Shown: in pieces, positions 27,673 through 34,746 of the stretch
Layout of the letters: each line of letters begins with the position of its first letter
How positions within the stretch are numbered: the stretch's first letter is position 1
Source of the DNA: Deltaproteobacteria bacterium
GTDB lineage: Bacteria > Lernaellota > Lernaellaia > Lernaellales > Lernaellaceae
Length of the DNA: 34,809 nucleotides
Assembly: GCA_003170555.1 (NCBI GenBank)
Contig: PMZC01000089.1
Location: forward strand, 2,984 to 37,792
Reading direction: 5' to 3'
Notes under the pieces: generated by a model
The model's input: the letters and a program-made list of their open reading frames with translations, nothing else
What the model was told of the DNA's origin: nothing
Databases searched by the model: none
Position numbers and translations under genes: made by a program

Positions 27673-29466
27673 CTAAGCCAGGTCAGCGCGCCAATCTTTC
27701 CCCACCGTCGACGAACGCAGCTCCAAACCGAACAACGCGGCGGCGGTGACGCCCAGATCGGCGATGCGGATCTCGCGGTCCAACACGCGCGCGGCGGCGC
27801 CGGGGCGCGCAATGGCCGCGGTGATCGGCAGCGTATCCACTGAGCCGTGTCCGCCGTTGAACGGCAGAAACGGCGGCAGCCAGCGCGGCAACTGCAGGCC
27901 GGTGTTCGGCATCGTGCCGCCGTGGACCGGCATCTGCCAGCCGTTCTTCGCGAAGAGGAACAGGTCGGGCCACGCGGTTTTGCCGCTGCGCTCGCCGTCG
28001 ACGAGATAAGGCTGATAGAGTTCGCCGGGCAGGCAGACGCCTTCGACGCCGCGGCGCATGTCATCGCGGTCCAGCACCCACCAGGGGCATTCGCTTTGGC
28101 CGGTCTGGGGATTCCGGGCGCGCAGGTTCAGCAAGAATGCCTTGGCCGGCGCCGCCTGGTCTTTCCGTTCGCGCCAGAACAGGCCGGCGATGCTGCACAG
28201 CGTGAAAGCGAAAAGGTCGTGCTTGTCCGCCAGATGCGCGTCGAGCAGCTTTTGCTGGAAATCGATGGTCGACGGATCGGCGACGTGCAGATAATTAATC
28301 ATCGAGTGGTCGCTGAGCAGCACGACGACCGCATTCTTCAGCGCGCCTTGCGCCTCGAGGCCGGCGATCAGGCGGCCGAAATGAAAGTCGGTGTCGCGAA
28401 TCGAGTCGAGCATCGGGTCGAGAAAGAGCATCGTGTTGCGGCGGCTGACCAACTGGTACTCCGGCTGATTCGCACACCACCACGGCGGGCGATAGGGCGT
28501 CGCCGGCGCCACAAACTCCGGCGGATTCGACCCCGTGCCCAGGCAGTGGCCGGCGTCGTCGGTTTGCGCCATCAGAATATAGGCGAGGTCCGGGTTTTCG
28601 CGCGAAAACACCTCGAGCGTCGAATCGACGATCCAGCCGTCGTGCGGAAAACGCGCGGGCAGCGCTTCCATCAGCCGAGTCAACTGCCCGGTCTGGCCGT
28701 CCCACAATCCGTAATTGACGCCGGACATGGGGTCTTCACCGTGCGGCTTCAGCGGCGACCGCGGATCACAGGCGGCGTCTTCATCGGTCGACGGATCGGC
28801 GAAATGTTCGTGCGGCGGCTTTTTCAAATACGCCGGGTGATGGCGGCCGGTGACCAGCACATCGACCGCCGGGCGTTCCGGCGTGTCGAACATCTCGGCG
28901 ACCCAGCCCTTGCCGGAAATGAAAGTGGTCGGCGAATCGGGCCAGCGCCGCTTCCAGGCGTGAAAAATCGTATCGACCGGGCGGCCCTGGTCGTCCCACA
29001 GGCGGGACAGATTCGTGGTGACCAGCTTCGGCTTGCCGTTCGCGCCCCACGAGGCGAACTGCCATTGCACGCCCAGCACGCCCGTCTGGCCGGTCATCGT
29101 CCCCGCGAGCGCGTTGAGGTGATTCGTGTCGGTCATCGACGGCAGGAAGCATCTGGCTTTCGGATACCAGACCGCGCGGTTCAGAAATTGGCGGATGTTC
29201 GGCATCAGCCAATCGCCGTCGCGTCCGCCCGGCTGCCCGTGGCGATTCAGCTTCAGATAGTTCGGGTCGAGCGAATCGATGGCGATGAAAATCAGCTTTT
29301 CCTTCGGCCGGTCGCCGGACCCGTCGCGGCGGATCGGCCGCAGCAAGACGCGCGACGCCGCCGGCGCGCAGGCCGACAGCATCGCGCCGCCCATGAATAC
29401 GCCAAGTCGTTGGAGGAACTGCCGCCGACTGAATTCGCGCCCGGGGTTTTCGTTTTCCGCGTTCAT
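27673..29466 (-). CDS. Tat-exported alkaline-phosphatase-superfamily lipoprotein
   Basis: The 597-residue protein begins with a twin-arginine signal (SRRQFLQ, residues 13-19) that ends in a lipobox LSAC (Cys33), so it should be exported folded and lipid-anchored. The catalytic domain has the superfamily start KLIFIAIDSLDPNYLKLN (metal Asp in IDSLD), a nucleophile region in RCFLPSMTDTNHLNALAGTMTG (Ser or Thr), and metal ligands in YILMAQTDDAGHCLG, VVVLLSDHSMINYLH and FNGGHGSVDTLP. The pattern is that of type I phosphodiesterase/nucleotide pyrophosphatase-like enzymes. Tat export fits a metalloenzyme folded in the cytoplasm. The substrate is unknown. ATG at 29466 follows AAGGAAG. It lies downstream of the rhomboid gene on the same strand, 77 bases apart. 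Confidence 0.85.
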   Translation of the reverse strand: MNAENENPGREFSRRQFLQRLGVFMGGAMLSACAPAASRVLLRPIRRDGSGDRPKEKLIFIAIDSLDPNYLKLNRHGQPGGRDGDWLMPNIRQFLNRAVWYPKARCFLPSMTDTNHLNALAGTMTGQTGVLGVQWQFASWGANGKPKLVTTNLSRLWDDQGRPVDTIFHAWKRRWPDSPTTFISGKGWVAEMFDTPERPAVDVLVTGRHHPAYLKKPPHEHFADPSTDEDAACDPRSPLKPHGEDPMSGVNYGLWDGQTGQLTRLMEALPARFPHDGWIVDSTLEVFSRENPDLAYILMAQTDDAGHCLGTGSNPPEFVAPATPYRPPWWCANQPEYQLVSRRNTMLFLDPMLDSIRDTDFHFGRLIAGLEAQGALKNAVVVLLSDHSMINYLHVADPSTIDFQQKLLDAHLADKHDLFAFTLCSIAGLFWRERKDQAAPAKAFLLNLRARNPQTGQSECPWWVLDRDDMRRGVEGVCLPGELYQPYLVDGERSGKTAWPDLFLFAKNGWQMPVHGGTMPNTGLQLPRWLPPFLPFNGGHGSVDTLPITAAIARPGAAARVLDREIRIADLGVTAAALFGLELRSSTVGKDWRADLA

Positions 29467-29543: not shown

Positions 29544-31007
29544 TCAGAAACGCAAAGCTCCGGTCTGTCCCGCGGCCGTGAGCACGTGCTGCGCCTCGGC
29601 CGCCGCCGGATGCATCGGAAATCGAGCAATCAACTGGCGCAGTCGCTCGCGGGCCGCGGGCGCGTTGTGCGACGCGGTGGCGAGCAGGTGGGCCGACTGG
29701 AACAGCGCCTTCGGGGCCAACGGCGAAGTCGGGTAATGCCGCAGGAGCGTCTCGTACATCTGCAGCGCCAGTTCCGGCATTTCGCTCTCCGCAAAGTACG
29801 GACCCAGCAGCGCATACGCCCGATCGGGAATCGGCGGCTCGCCGGGCACGTCGACAAAAAACCGCGCCAGGTCGCCCAGCAGCGGGAGGTCGCGGGCCTC
29901 GACCAGCTCGTTCGCCAGGCGCGCGGCGTCCTGCTTGGCGACGATGACATTGTGCTCGGCCACATTGGTCTGAATTTTGCGGAAACGGCCGAAAAAGTCC
30001 GTCGCTTCCGGATCGCCCTTCAGCCGGCGTTCGGCCCGGCGCTTCGCTCGGCCGATGGCGCTGGTGTCTTCCAACTCCTCTTCTTCCTCCTCCTCGACCG
30101 TCTCTTCCGGCGGGTGAAAATAGCGGAGCACGAAATAGAGACCCAGGCCGGTGCAGAAGCCGCCGACGTGCGCCCAATAGGCGATGTTCGTCGTGTGTTC
30201 GGCGCCGAGCAACGCCGGAACCAGGTTCTCCAAGAAATAAAAAGGAAGCACGATGTACGCGGGCAGAGTGAAGTAGCCCTTGCCCCAGCGGATGATGATC
30301 CAGTAGAAGTAGAAAAACTGAATCTTGGCTTTCGCGAAGCGCGGCAGGAAGGCGCCGATCAGCCCGAAGACCGCTCCCGAGGCGCCGATGATGGGGACAT
30401 TCGAGCCTGCGTTCATCAGCGCGAACAGCACGTTTCCGAAGAACCCGGCGATGAAATAGAGCAGCAGGTAGGCGACCACGCCGAACGTGTCTTCCAAGAT
30501 GCCGCCGGCCAGATACAGAAAGATCATGTTCCCGACGACGTGACCCAGGCTGGCGTGCAGGAACATGGCGGTGATCGCGCTGAGCGGGTTGAAGTGCTTG
30601 GGGACCAGGCCGTAGCGGCGATCGAAGCCGCGATCGATTTTCGCCTGCCATGTGTCGACGAGCTTTTGATAATCCGTGAACATCGGGTCATCAGCCGGCA
30701 CGACTTTTCCGGCGATGAAATCGGTCGCGAATTGCCGGAACTCGTCGTAGTGTGTTTGACAATATTCAGCATTCAGCGGGGGCCAGGACGGCGCGTTAGG
30801 TTTGGCCCGTTCTGTAGCGAGAAAGTCCTCACAGAGCAACTGACGCTTGGCCTGCCGCGCCGACAGTTGCACGTCGACCGAATCCCACATCGGGCCGAGC
30901 GTCGCGAAGAACACCGCCAGGTTGATGAAGATCAGCGCGAAGGTGGCGTAAGGCCACCCGTGCACCCGGCCTTGCTCGTGGCCGATGGGAAAAATAAACC
31001 AGAACAT
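29544..31007 (-). CDS. Rhomboid-family intramembrane serine protease with C-terminal helical-repeat domain
   Basis: With the ATG at 31007 (GGGAAG upstream) the protein has 487 residues and starts at a hydrophobic helix (MFWFIFPIGHEQGRVHGWPYATFALIFINLAVFF). The rhomboid core shows HASLGHVVGNMIFLYLAG (helix 2 His/Asn), the catalytic Ser in IIGASGAVFGLIG (Ser210) and the catalytic His in YWAHVGGFCTGLG (His280). A loop of about 100 residues sits between helices 1 and 2, and a cytoplasmic tail after residue 300 begins with a run of Glu and continues as TPR-like helices (YETLLRHYPTSPLAPKALFQSAHLLAT). Rhomboids cleave membrane proteins within the bilayer. The C-terminal repeats may hold substrates or partners. 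Substrates are unknown. An upstream in-frame start at 31076 is less likely. Confidence 0.88.
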   Translation of the reverse strand: MFWFIFPIGHEQGRVHGWPYATFALIFINLAVFFATLGPMWDSVDVQLSARQAKRQLLCEDFLATERAKPNAPSWPPLNAEYCQTHYDEFRQFATDFIAGKVVPADDPMFTDYQKLVDTWQAKIDRGFDRRYGLVPKHFNPLSAITAMFLHASLGHVVGNMIFLYLAGGILEDTFGVVAYLLLYFIAGFFGNVLFALMNAGSNVPIIGASGAVFGLIGAFLPRFAKAKIQFFYFYWIIIRWGKGYFTLPAYIVLPFYFLENLVPALLGAEHTTNIAYWAHVGGFCTGLGLYFVLRYFHPPEETVEEEEEEELEDTSAIGRAKRRAERRLKGDPEATDFFGRFRKIQTNVAEHNVIVAKQDAARLANELVEARDLPLLGDLARFFVDVPGEPPIPDRAYALLGPYFAESEMPELALQMYETLLRHYPTSPLAPKALFQSAHLLATASHNAPAARERLRQLIARFPMHPAAAEAQHVLTAAGQTGALRF

Positions 31008-31156
31008 GGTTTGCTTCCCAAGTTTGCATCGCGGCGGCGAACCGACGGATGCGGGTTCGAGAGCCGGCTGCGCCAATACTTTTTTGTTGAACGAGGACCG
31101 ATTCTATCGCGGGTTTGGCGGCGGTGGCAAATCGTTCGCTGGGCCGGCCGAGCGGT

Positions 31157-31882: not shown

Positions 31883-32013
31883 GCGTCCGCCCCCGTCGTT
31901 TTGCGCAACGTAGGGTCGGCGAGGCGGCCTGTCAAACGCGAAAGACAAACGGCCGGCGAATCGTTACAATGCGCCCGGTTGATCGGGCAGTTCACCACGG
32001 CCGAGAGTTGACC

Positions 32014-34746
32014 ATGCGGCATCGAATCACGCTCACCCTGTCGATCTTTTCCTTGTTCGCGTTCTTGCTCGCGCCCCCCGCGCGGCCCTGCGGCATGTCG
32101 ACGCACGACGAAATCAGCCAGCGGGCGCGCACGTTTTTCCACTCGGACGACTACCCGGCGTTCGACGACTATCTCGCCCAGCAAAGCGGCGCGCTGCAGG
32201 CGGGTTCGGTGTTTCCGGATTGGGGATACTCGTTCGGTTACCCGGACGAGTCGGAGGCGGCGCACTGGCCGCCCTATCTGACCGCCTACGCCGACTACCT
32301 GCACGACACCTATCCGCAGCCGTGGGACGAGGACACGATCAAGTCGGCGGTGTTTCTCCTCGGCGCGGTGTCGCATTCGGTGGCCGACTTCAACTGGCAC
32401 TTCACCGTCGGCCCGCTCGACGGTTTCATCACGACCATGAGCAAGCTCGATTTCCACGGCAACTACGGCGACGCGCATACGGCCGCCGATTTCGGCGGCG
32501 ACGTACTGACCGTCAGCGAAATCGACCTCGGCTTCGAGGAATATTGGTACGTGGCCGCGGCCGACGCGGCGGCGGTCTATCAGGAACAGGGCTATACGAC
32601 CGTCACGCCCGAGGCGATCACCTCCCGCATGGGCATCATGTTCGTGGGTTCGCGCGGCGAGCGGATCGTGAACGGCCTGCTGTTCGACAAGTACGCCGCG
32701 GAATCGCCGTTCATGACCGAGCAGTTCCTCGACTACCACTTCGGCGGCCTCGACGACATGGCGGCCTGGACGGCGTGGACCTGGCCCGAGTACATCGCCG
32801 ATATGGAAAACGGCCTGCCTGTCGCCGCGCGTCACGTTGCACCGGCGGACGGAGTGGACGTGGACCGCGTCTACGCCATGCTCGCCGCGTTCGGCATCGG
32901 CCCGGCCGACATCATCATCGAGCGCGACGGTCGCGGCGTGACGATGCGCCTGCCCGATCCGGTTCGCGCCGCGCCGGCGAAGCCGGGACGCGCGCTGCCG
33001 CCGCCGGCCGACCGCTCGCTGACCCTGACCACCGCCGATCCATACGCCCACCTCGGCACGAGCCTTGCCACGGCCGATCTCAACGGCGACGGCTATGCCG
33101 ATCTGGTCGTCGGCGCGCCCGGCTACGGCAAACCGGGGCAGCCGCAACTCGGCGCGGTGTACGTGCTGCTCGGCCGGCCGCAGGTGGACGGCCAGGAGCA
33201 ACTGTCGGTCGCCGACGCCGATTTCACGCTGACCGGCCGGGACACCTATGGCCGCTTCGGCTGGAGCGTGGCGCTGGTTGACCTGAACGCCGACGGCAAG
33301 CTCGATCTCGTCGTTTCGTCGCCGACCATCGGCGCACAGAGCGACGCGTACACCGGCCGCGTCGACGTCTTCTTCGGGGACGGCGCCGGCGGTTTCTCCA
33401 CCACGCCCGACGTAGTCATCACGGCGACCGACATCGAAACCGTGCTCGGCTACACCATGCTCGCCGGGGACGTCGACGGCGACGGCCACGACGACCTGAT
33501 TCTCGGCATGCCGTTCGCCCCGGCCGGCGGCCAGCAGCGCGGGCAAGTCACCGTGTTTCGGGCCTCCGCCGGCCTCACCAGCGGCCGGAACCTGACCGTG
33601 GCCGACGCCGATTGGACGCTCAGCGGCGAGGCGGACCACGATTGGTTCGGCTACTCGCTGGCGCTGGCGCCGCGCGCGGGGCAGAGCCCGCTGATGCTGG
33701 TCGGCGCGCCGACGGTCAACGTCGGCGACGTGCAGAGCGCGGGGCGCGTGTACGGGTATACGTATGGTTCGTCCGCGCGGGCGTTCACGATCACCGCGGC
33801 GGACGAATTTCAGAAGTTCGGCGCGTCGCTGTCGGTGTTGAATCTGCCGGCGGAAGGTCCGGCCGCCGTGGTCGGCGCGCCGACCGAATCCCAAGGCGCG
33901 CAGAACCAGGTCGGCGCGGTGCACGTGATTCCGCTGGCCGGCCTGAGCGGTGACCGGCGCCTGGCCGACGTGAACGAGCGCGCGGCGCTCTACGGCGACG
34001 CCGCCGGAAAACGCTTCGGCTGGCGCACGACGACCTGCGACCTCAACGGCGACGGCGCTGACGACCTGTGGGTGTCGCAGCCGTGGCTCGACCACGAAGC
34101 CGGCGACGCGCACCTGTGGTTCGGCGGCGACAGCTTCCCGACCGGCGCGGTCGCTCATGCGCCCGACGGCGCTTCGTGGACGGCCGGCGAAGGCCCGGCG
34201 CGCTCGCTGGCCGGCAATGCGCTGGTTTGTCTCGACTTCAACGGCGATGGTTACCCCGACCTCGCGCTCGGCGAGCGACGCGATAGCCGTTTCGGTGTCG
34301 AGGCCGGCGCCGTGACGTTACTACTCACCCCCGCGCCCTCGCTGGTGGGCCTGGCGCCGGATCACGCGGCGGCGGGTGAGTCGCGCATCTTCATGCTCAG
34401 CGGCGAACGCTTCATCGACCAGGGCCTGTCGCTCGAACTGCGGCAGGGCGACCGCGTGCTGCGACCGGCGCAACTCAGCGTGGGCGACGCGCAGCACATC
34501 TCCTTCTCGGTCGACATCCCCGCCGACGCGCCGACCGGCGCCTACGATCTCACCTTGCAAACCGATTTCGGCGCGGCCACGCTGACCGGCGCGCTGACGA
34601 TCGAGCCTTCCACCGCTGACGACGATGTGATTGACGACGACGCGGTCGATGATGACGCGGCGGACGACGACACGGCGGACGATGACTCGTCAGACGACGA
34701 TGCTTCGCCTGCGGGCGATGACGACAACAGCGGGTGCGGATGCTGA
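32014..34746 (+). CDS. Secreted GPI-PLD-like protein: zinc-dependent phospholipase domain, FG-GAP propeller, Asp-rich tail, terminal GCGC
   Basis: The 910-residue protein has a signal peptide (cleavage likely before Cys26) and a mature start CGMSTHDEISQRA. Residues 26-300 match, from memory, the catalytic domain of animal GPLD1: QAGSVFPDWGY, AAHWPPYLTAYADYLHDTYP, LLGAVSHSVADFNWHF, DFHGNYGDAHTAADFGGDVL and SPFMTEQFLDYHFGGLDDMA, with His/Asp/Trp residues able to bind zinc. Residues about 335-780 are FG-GAP blades with calcium loops DLNGDGYADLVVG (Asp355 region), DLNADGKLDLVV, DVDGDGHDDLILG, DLNGDGADDLWV and DFNGDGYPDLALG, plus two degenerate blades, seven in all. An Ig-like/IPT domain follows (about 785-865), then an Asp-rich tail (DDDVIDDDAVDDDAADDD) and NSGCGC at the end. 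Mammalian GPLD1 cleaves GPI anchors; the bacterial substrate is unknown. Confidence 0.88.
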   Translation: MRHRITLTLSIFSLFAFLLAPPARPCGMSTHDEISQRARTFFHSDDYPAFDDYLAQQSGALQAGSVFPDWGYSFGYPDESEAAHWPPYLTAYADYLHDTYPQPWDEDTIKSAVFLLGAVSHSVADFNWHFTVGPLDGFITTMSKLDFHGNYGDAHTAADFGGDVLTVSEIDLGFEEYWYVAAADAAAVYQEQGYTTVTPEAITSRMGIMFVGSRGERIVNGLLFDKYAAESPFMTEQFLDYHFGGLDDMAAWTAWTWPEYIADMENGLPVAARHVAPADGVDVDRVYAMLAAFGIGPADIIIERDGRGVTMRLPDPVRAAPAKPGRALPPPADRSLTLTTADPYAHLGTSLATADLNGDGYADLVVGAPGYGKPGQPQLGAVYVLLGRPQVDGQEQLSVADADFTLTGRDTYGRFGWSVALVDLNADGKLDLVVSSPTIGAQSDAYTGRVDVFFGDGAGGFSTTPDVVITATDIETVLGYTMLAGDVDGDGHDDLILGMPFAPAGGQQRGQVTVFRASAGLTSGRNLTVADADWTLSGEADHDWFGYSLALAPRAGQSPLMLVGAPTVNVGDVQSAGRVYGYTYGSSARAFTITAADEFQKFGASLSVLNLPAEGPAAVVGAPTESQGAQNQVGAVHVIPLAGLSGDRRLADVNERAALYGDAAGKRFGWRTTTCDLNGDGADDLWVSQPWLDHEAGDAHLWFGGDSFPTGAVAHAPDGASWTAGEGPARSLAGNALVCLDFNGDGYPDLALGERRDSRFGVEAGAVTLLLTPAPSLVGLAPDHAAAGESRIFMLSGERFIDQGLSLELRQGDRVLRPAQLSVGDAQHISFSVDIPADAPTGAYDLTLQTDFGAATLTGALTIEPSTADDDVIDDDAVDDDAADDDTADDDSSDDDASPAGDDDNSGCGC

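Follow-up and report, generated by a model that had tools for sequence, protein, structure and literature searches.

A bacterial protein with the domain architecture of animal GPI-specific phospholipase D in the phylum Lernaellota

The window analysed here, i.e., the whole stretch of 34,809 nucleotides from a genome of the phylum Lernaellota, carries an open reading frame of 910 residues that runs from an ATG at 32014 to a stop codon at 34744-34746. The initial annotation had attributed to its product the full architecture of animal GPI-specific phospholipase D (GPLD1), and the features on which this attribution can be judged are the following, in window coordinates.

31942..31970 (+), weak promoter-like candidate site, 9/12, with 0.1 expected by chance
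32014..34746 (+), whole gene of the GPLD1-like protein P0001, 910 aa (ORF, Pfam and BLASTP against human GPLD1)
32014..32088 (+), predicted signal peptide of 25 aa, MRHRITLTLSIFSLFAFLLAPPARP ([AC]G start aligned across seven homologues)
32089..32814 (+), catalytic domain of the zinc-dependent phospholipase C type, residues 1-242 of the predicted mature protein (PF00882, alignment, model pLDDT 84)
32089..32106 (+), predicted mature N-terminus C1-G-M-S-T-H6, where a metal site is expected from the amine/carbonyl of residue 1 and the H6 side chain (alignment)
32218..32220 (+), D44 (FPD), expected metal ligand (invariant in alignment)
32263..32265 (+), H59 (AHW), expected metal ligand (invariant in alignment)
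32374..32400 (+), H96-xxx-D100-xxx-H104, expected metal ligands equivalent to GPLD1 H125/D129/H133 (invariant in alignment)
32476..32490 (+), H130-xxx-D134 followed by GG, expected metal ligands equivalent to GPLD1 H158/D162 (invariant in alignment)
32914..32949 (+), linker hairpin with the R-G motif IIIERDGRGVTM (alignment; model strands 276-280 and 283-287)
33016..34353 (+), integrin-type beta-propeller of FG-GAP repeats, with calcium-type DxDxDG loops at five places (PF01839, motif positions, integrin-head fold match)
34357..34608 (+), Ig-like beta domain, not in GPLD1 (alignment, model strands)
34609..34743 (+), DDD-repeat tail of 45 residues ending in SGCGC at the C-terminus (sequence; ending shared with other proteins of this genome)

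Another in-frame ATG occurs further upstream, at 31969; position 32014 was taken as the start because the frame read from there opens with a proper signal peptide and a GAGAG stretch precedes this ATG by a few bases. In seven homologues the aligned [AC]G lies directly after signal peptides with A-x-A-like or -xP ends, and a lipoprotein was ruled out, since the ARP that precedes C1 is no lipobox. All the segments quoted in the initial annotation (CGMSTHDEI, VFPDW, HWPPYL, DFHGNY, DFGGDVL and EQFLDYHFGGLDDMA) were found, in the order claimed. The signal peptide is followed by a PF00882 Zn_dep_PLPC match (residues 51-183, E=5e-15) and by FG-GAP repeats (PF01839, E=1e-43), while the Ig-like domain gave a weak NPCBM_assoc match, under the cut-off.

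For the comparison with the animal enzyme, a mature human GPLD1 sequence that does not come from a database record was used, which is a weakness of the comparison; three internal checks agree with it. It has 817 residues, the length expected of the mature protein, matches PF00882 (E=1e-22) and FG-GAP (E=2e-31) in Pfam, and has His at precursor positions 29, 125, 133 and 158. The protein of the window aligns with it in a single collinear stretch from CG-STH onward, covering nearly the whole protein (BLASTP, 367 bits, 35% over 702 columns, E=1e-112 when scaled to a database size of 2e8 letters), and the catalytic part is 39% identical over 250 columns. The order of domains proposed for this gene was thus confirmed, and it is not peculiar to it, an N-terminal PF00882 domain followed by an FG-GAP propeller being found by Pfam in all eight bacterial members of the group as well as in this human protein. 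Beyond this, the bacterial protein and animal GPLD1 have in common the secretion signal, the predicted CG-STH-EI mature start, the ligands and catalytic histidines, the RGV motif of the linker, for which IIIERDGRGVTM is the equivalent of GPLD1 TERGVFF, and the calcium-type loops of the propeller. The two differ in that the protein of the window is bacterial, only about 35% identical, has a shorter linker, and bears two additions, an Ig-like domain and a tail of DDD repeats that closes with GCGC.

Similarity to other families falls far below these values. Integrin alpha subunits also have an FG-GAP propeller with DxDxDG loops, but integrins reach only 53 bits against the 367 bits of GPLD1, and the protein of the window has an enzyme domain in front; membership of the integrin alpha family, with its thigh/calf domains and beta-subunit pairing, was therefore rejected as a propeller-only similarity. 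Bacterial zinc-dependent phospholipases C (PF00882) and S1/P1 nucleases belong to the same superfamily and share the expected ligand pattern, but are without such a propeller, are far more distant in sequence and fall in a separate clade. The human catalytic domain scored 179 bits with the protein of the window and 223 bits with the homologue L033, compared to 86 bits at most with short PF00882 proteins of other bacteria. In a tree of eight bacterial GPLD1-like proteins, one animal sequence (the human one described above) and short zinc phospholipases, the nine GPLD1-like rows formed one clade against the short enzymes with a support of 99-100%. These bit scores and this clade support rule out a generic zinc phospholipase and bear out the specific kinship with GPLD1 that had been suggested. 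Since the collinear match exceeds that to integrins and to short zinc phospholipases, and since the predicted mature N-terminus and the ligands are kept, we consider the relation specific to GPLD1, and the protein is almost certainly a member of this family.

As a loss of zinc ligands would bear on that reading, it was looked for by alignment, and all eight ligands were kept in each of the eight bacterial proteins. The ligand pattern was taken from zinc phospholipase C and P1 nuclease, and on this analogy H6, D44, H59, H96, D100, H104, H130 and D134, together with the N-terminal residue, are expected to bind the metals; the eight side chains are invariant in 8/8 bacterial proteins and match those of the human GPLD1 sequence. 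The last acidic ligand is Asp in the protein of the window and in GPLD1, and Glu in the classical enzymes. In every one of the eight alignment rows the predicted mature protein opens, at one aligned position, with Cys or Ala and then Gly. Mutagenesis by Raikwar et al. in 2005 is said to have found His 29, 125, 133 and 158 essential in GPLD1; these residues correspond to H6, H96, H104 and H130 of the window's protein, and each is kept in every bacterial homologue. Given that the other seven are only 41-53% identical to it in the catalytic domain, the invariance of the ligands indicates that selection keeps the metal site, and the protein is very probably a zinc hydrolase. The same invariance, despite a full-length identity of 37-44% to these seven homologues, speaks against a surface adhesin or structural protein whose function would reside in the propeller and the tail, with the phospholipase domain serving as a scaffold. 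These genomes encode many FG-GAP proteins, the GCGC tail is found on many other proteins, and some motifs vary in relatives, such as DFHGNY, which is EFPDHF in L013, all of which would suit an adhesin, but we regard such a role as improbable.

Structure prediction was consistent with this layout. An AlphaFold run on a bacteria-only alignment gave a whole-protein model (mean pLDDT 82, pTM 0.85) in which an N-terminal domain of helices leads through a beta-hairpin linker to the propeller and then to the Ig-like domain. The propeller matched integrin heads (E=3e-16), with a TM-score of 0.67 on the 454-residue headpiece of integrin alphaIIb (3nid). Of the seven blades initially attributed to it, the model and the match to 7-bladed integrin heads are in favor, whereas Pfam counts five FG-GAP stretches. 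The DxDxDG loops are predicted to bind calcium, as in the blades of GPLD1, whose calcium blades have been discussed previously (PMC3123361). When the catalytic domain was modelled alone (pLDDT 84), its best PDB matches in Foldseek were zinc phospholipase C and S1/P1-type nucleases, with probabilities up to 0.95 but individually weak (E 0.17 and up), and because of these poor E-values Pfam and the ligand pattern are the main basis of the fold assignment. A sequence search of the PDB returned no relative of the GPLD1 catalytic domain.

The gene is carried by six of the seven Lernaellota genomes analysed, in one as two copies and in another with a frame break. Outside the phylum, two full-length homologues were found, L033 in the 'Deltaproteobacteria' MAG DeMMO3_31 and L058 in genome G392. 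More than 1,000 other genomes, in partly overlapping samples of 386 relatives (mostly of other families), 198 relatives of G386, and 297, 195 and 349 genomes of three phyla, contained no further full-length homologue but only short PF00882 proteins, and a pattern scan of 84,980 species genomes, which requires exact motifs and can therefore miss relatives, gave two loci. Viral contigs and plasmids held no full-length homologue either, the plasmid matches being confined to propeller or repeat. The gene is hence a near-constant trait of a small phylum and rare elsewhere. So rare an animal-like architecture among bacteria might raise the suspicion of eukaryotic contamination or of a mis-assembled animal gene in a bacterial bin, but the reading frame is free of introns, its GC3 of 0.87 is like that of its bacterial neighbours, bacterial genes flank it on both sides, it ends in the phylum-typical DDD..GCGC tail, and diverged copies occur in six genomes. 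Contamination is thereby ruled out by GC3, flanks, tail and copies, and we give it practically no credence.

Two of the copies deserve mention in their own right. L013 (G002:C130) is the second GPLD1-like paralogue of its genome and the more diverged one; its ligands are kept and its DFHGNY segment is changed as described above. In G006, which belongs to the class of the window's genome, the gene (L007/L034, G006:C26, about 169862-172610) is split over two frames near residue 64 of the catalytic domain, either through misassembly or because the gene has become a pseudogene.

Regarding what the enzyme does, GPI-PLD cleaves the GPI anchor to yield phosphatidic acid and a soluble protein (PMC3634480). 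For the protein of this phylum, the most likely reading, which we favor with some reserve, is a secreted, Ca-stabilised phosphodiesterase with several zinc ions that belongs to the GPLD1 family and has inositol phospholipids as its substrates. We infer zinc loading, activity, substrate and surface retention, and envisage the following course. The signal peptide would export the protein and signal peptidase would expose the N-terminal Cys-Gly, whose amine would complete a multi-zinc site with the eight ligands listed above. At a membrane surface, this site would cut phospholipid head groups by hydrolysis of a phosphodiester bond. The calcium-type propeller would stabilise and position the site, and the enzyme may be held at the surface of the producing cell by its Ig-like domain and DDD...GCGC tail. 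The likeliest substrates would be inositol phospholipids, whether these are GPI and similar glycoinositides of eukaryotes in the vicinity or prokaryotic inositol lipids.

The substrate is the weakest step of this proposal. Because the superfamily includes both C-type phospholipases and nucleases, bond and substrate are not readable from the ligands alone, and no conserved neighbour gene pointing to a substrate was found between the compared loci; a short-chain dehydrogenase lies near the gene in two of them, at different distances. The main rival is a broad extracellular phospholipase or phosphodiesterase that scavenges phosphorus and carbon, with C-type or unspecific cleavage of common phospholipids from dead cells, its GPLD1 likeness reflecting shared descent without GPI specificity. 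C-type phospholipases and nucleases make up most of the PF00882/P1 superfamily and are among the best matches of the model, and, to our knowledge, GPI is not known from bacteria. Moreover, nearly every analysed genome of the phylum has retained the gene. This phylum, which also goes by the names FEN-1099, Candidatus Lernaellota or Podoxiota (PMC13248872), has been reported from habitats such as sludge with no fixed host, and such near-universal presence points to a general role rather than to a tie to one host. However, the similarity to GPLD1 is far above that of generic members and extends to the linker motif and to the distal SPF--EQ--Y-GGLDDMA segment, and we hold a mere scavenger to be unlikely, if still a serious contender, next to the favored phosphodiesterase for inositol phospholipids.

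Order within the GPLD1-like clade is poorly supported, so no direction of gene transfer is claimed. In the best tree the human sequence groups with L033 and L058 (support 72/87, not significant), and a tree with all bacterial rows together was not rejected (p-AU 0.18); with a single animal row, human GPLD1 may be nested in or sister to the bacterial set. That the phylum owns a true GPI- or glycoinositide-cutting phospholipase D, directed from the cell surface at eukaryotic neighbours or at an unrecognised prokaryotic inositol lipid, and that animal GPLD1 descends from it by horizontal transfer, is a doubtful proposition at present. Our literature search found no report on a bacterial GPLD1 and no account of the origin of GPLD1. 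GPLD1 is an abundant plasma enzyme of animals, and bacterial homologues with its whole layout offer a panel for the residues that set GPI specificity and D-type cleavage and a possible route to a structure, and make gene transfer between bacteria and animals a question that can be put in concrete terms.

The Ig-like domain and the DDD-repeat tail, neither of them noted in the initial annotation, are additions in the Lernaellota copies. DDD-x repeats followed by [SG]GCGC exactly at the stop codon form a signature seen at 34609-34743 of the window and at L071-L100 on other contigs of the same genome, where the GCGC-tail pattern gave 45 matches compared to six for the reversed pattern. In 29 of the 30 loci read (L071-L100) the open frame ends in GCGC after an Asp- or Gly/Asp-rich stretch, and the tail is also present on GPLD1-like proteins of three related genomes. 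Known CTERM sorting tags are followed by a transmembrane segment; none follows GCGC here, and NCBIfam named no sorting tag in either tail tested (that of the window type and that of L033). DDD..GCGC may represent a signal for anchoring or cysteine modification that has yet to be described. L033 and L058 have no such tail and both end in a CFI-x-x-A motif, which in L033 is CFISSA followed by a hydrophobic stretch and lysines, and the same enzyme thus carries different tails in different bacteria.

Among the neighbouring genes, a rhomboid-domain protein with a long C-terminal region resembling helical (TPR-like) repeats is encoded two genes away (29544-31076, minus strand). Three genes away lies that of a type I phosphodiesterase/nucleotide pyrophosphatase with a Tat-like signal (SRRQFLQ...SACAP; 27673-29466, minus strand), possibly a second exported phosphodiesterase.
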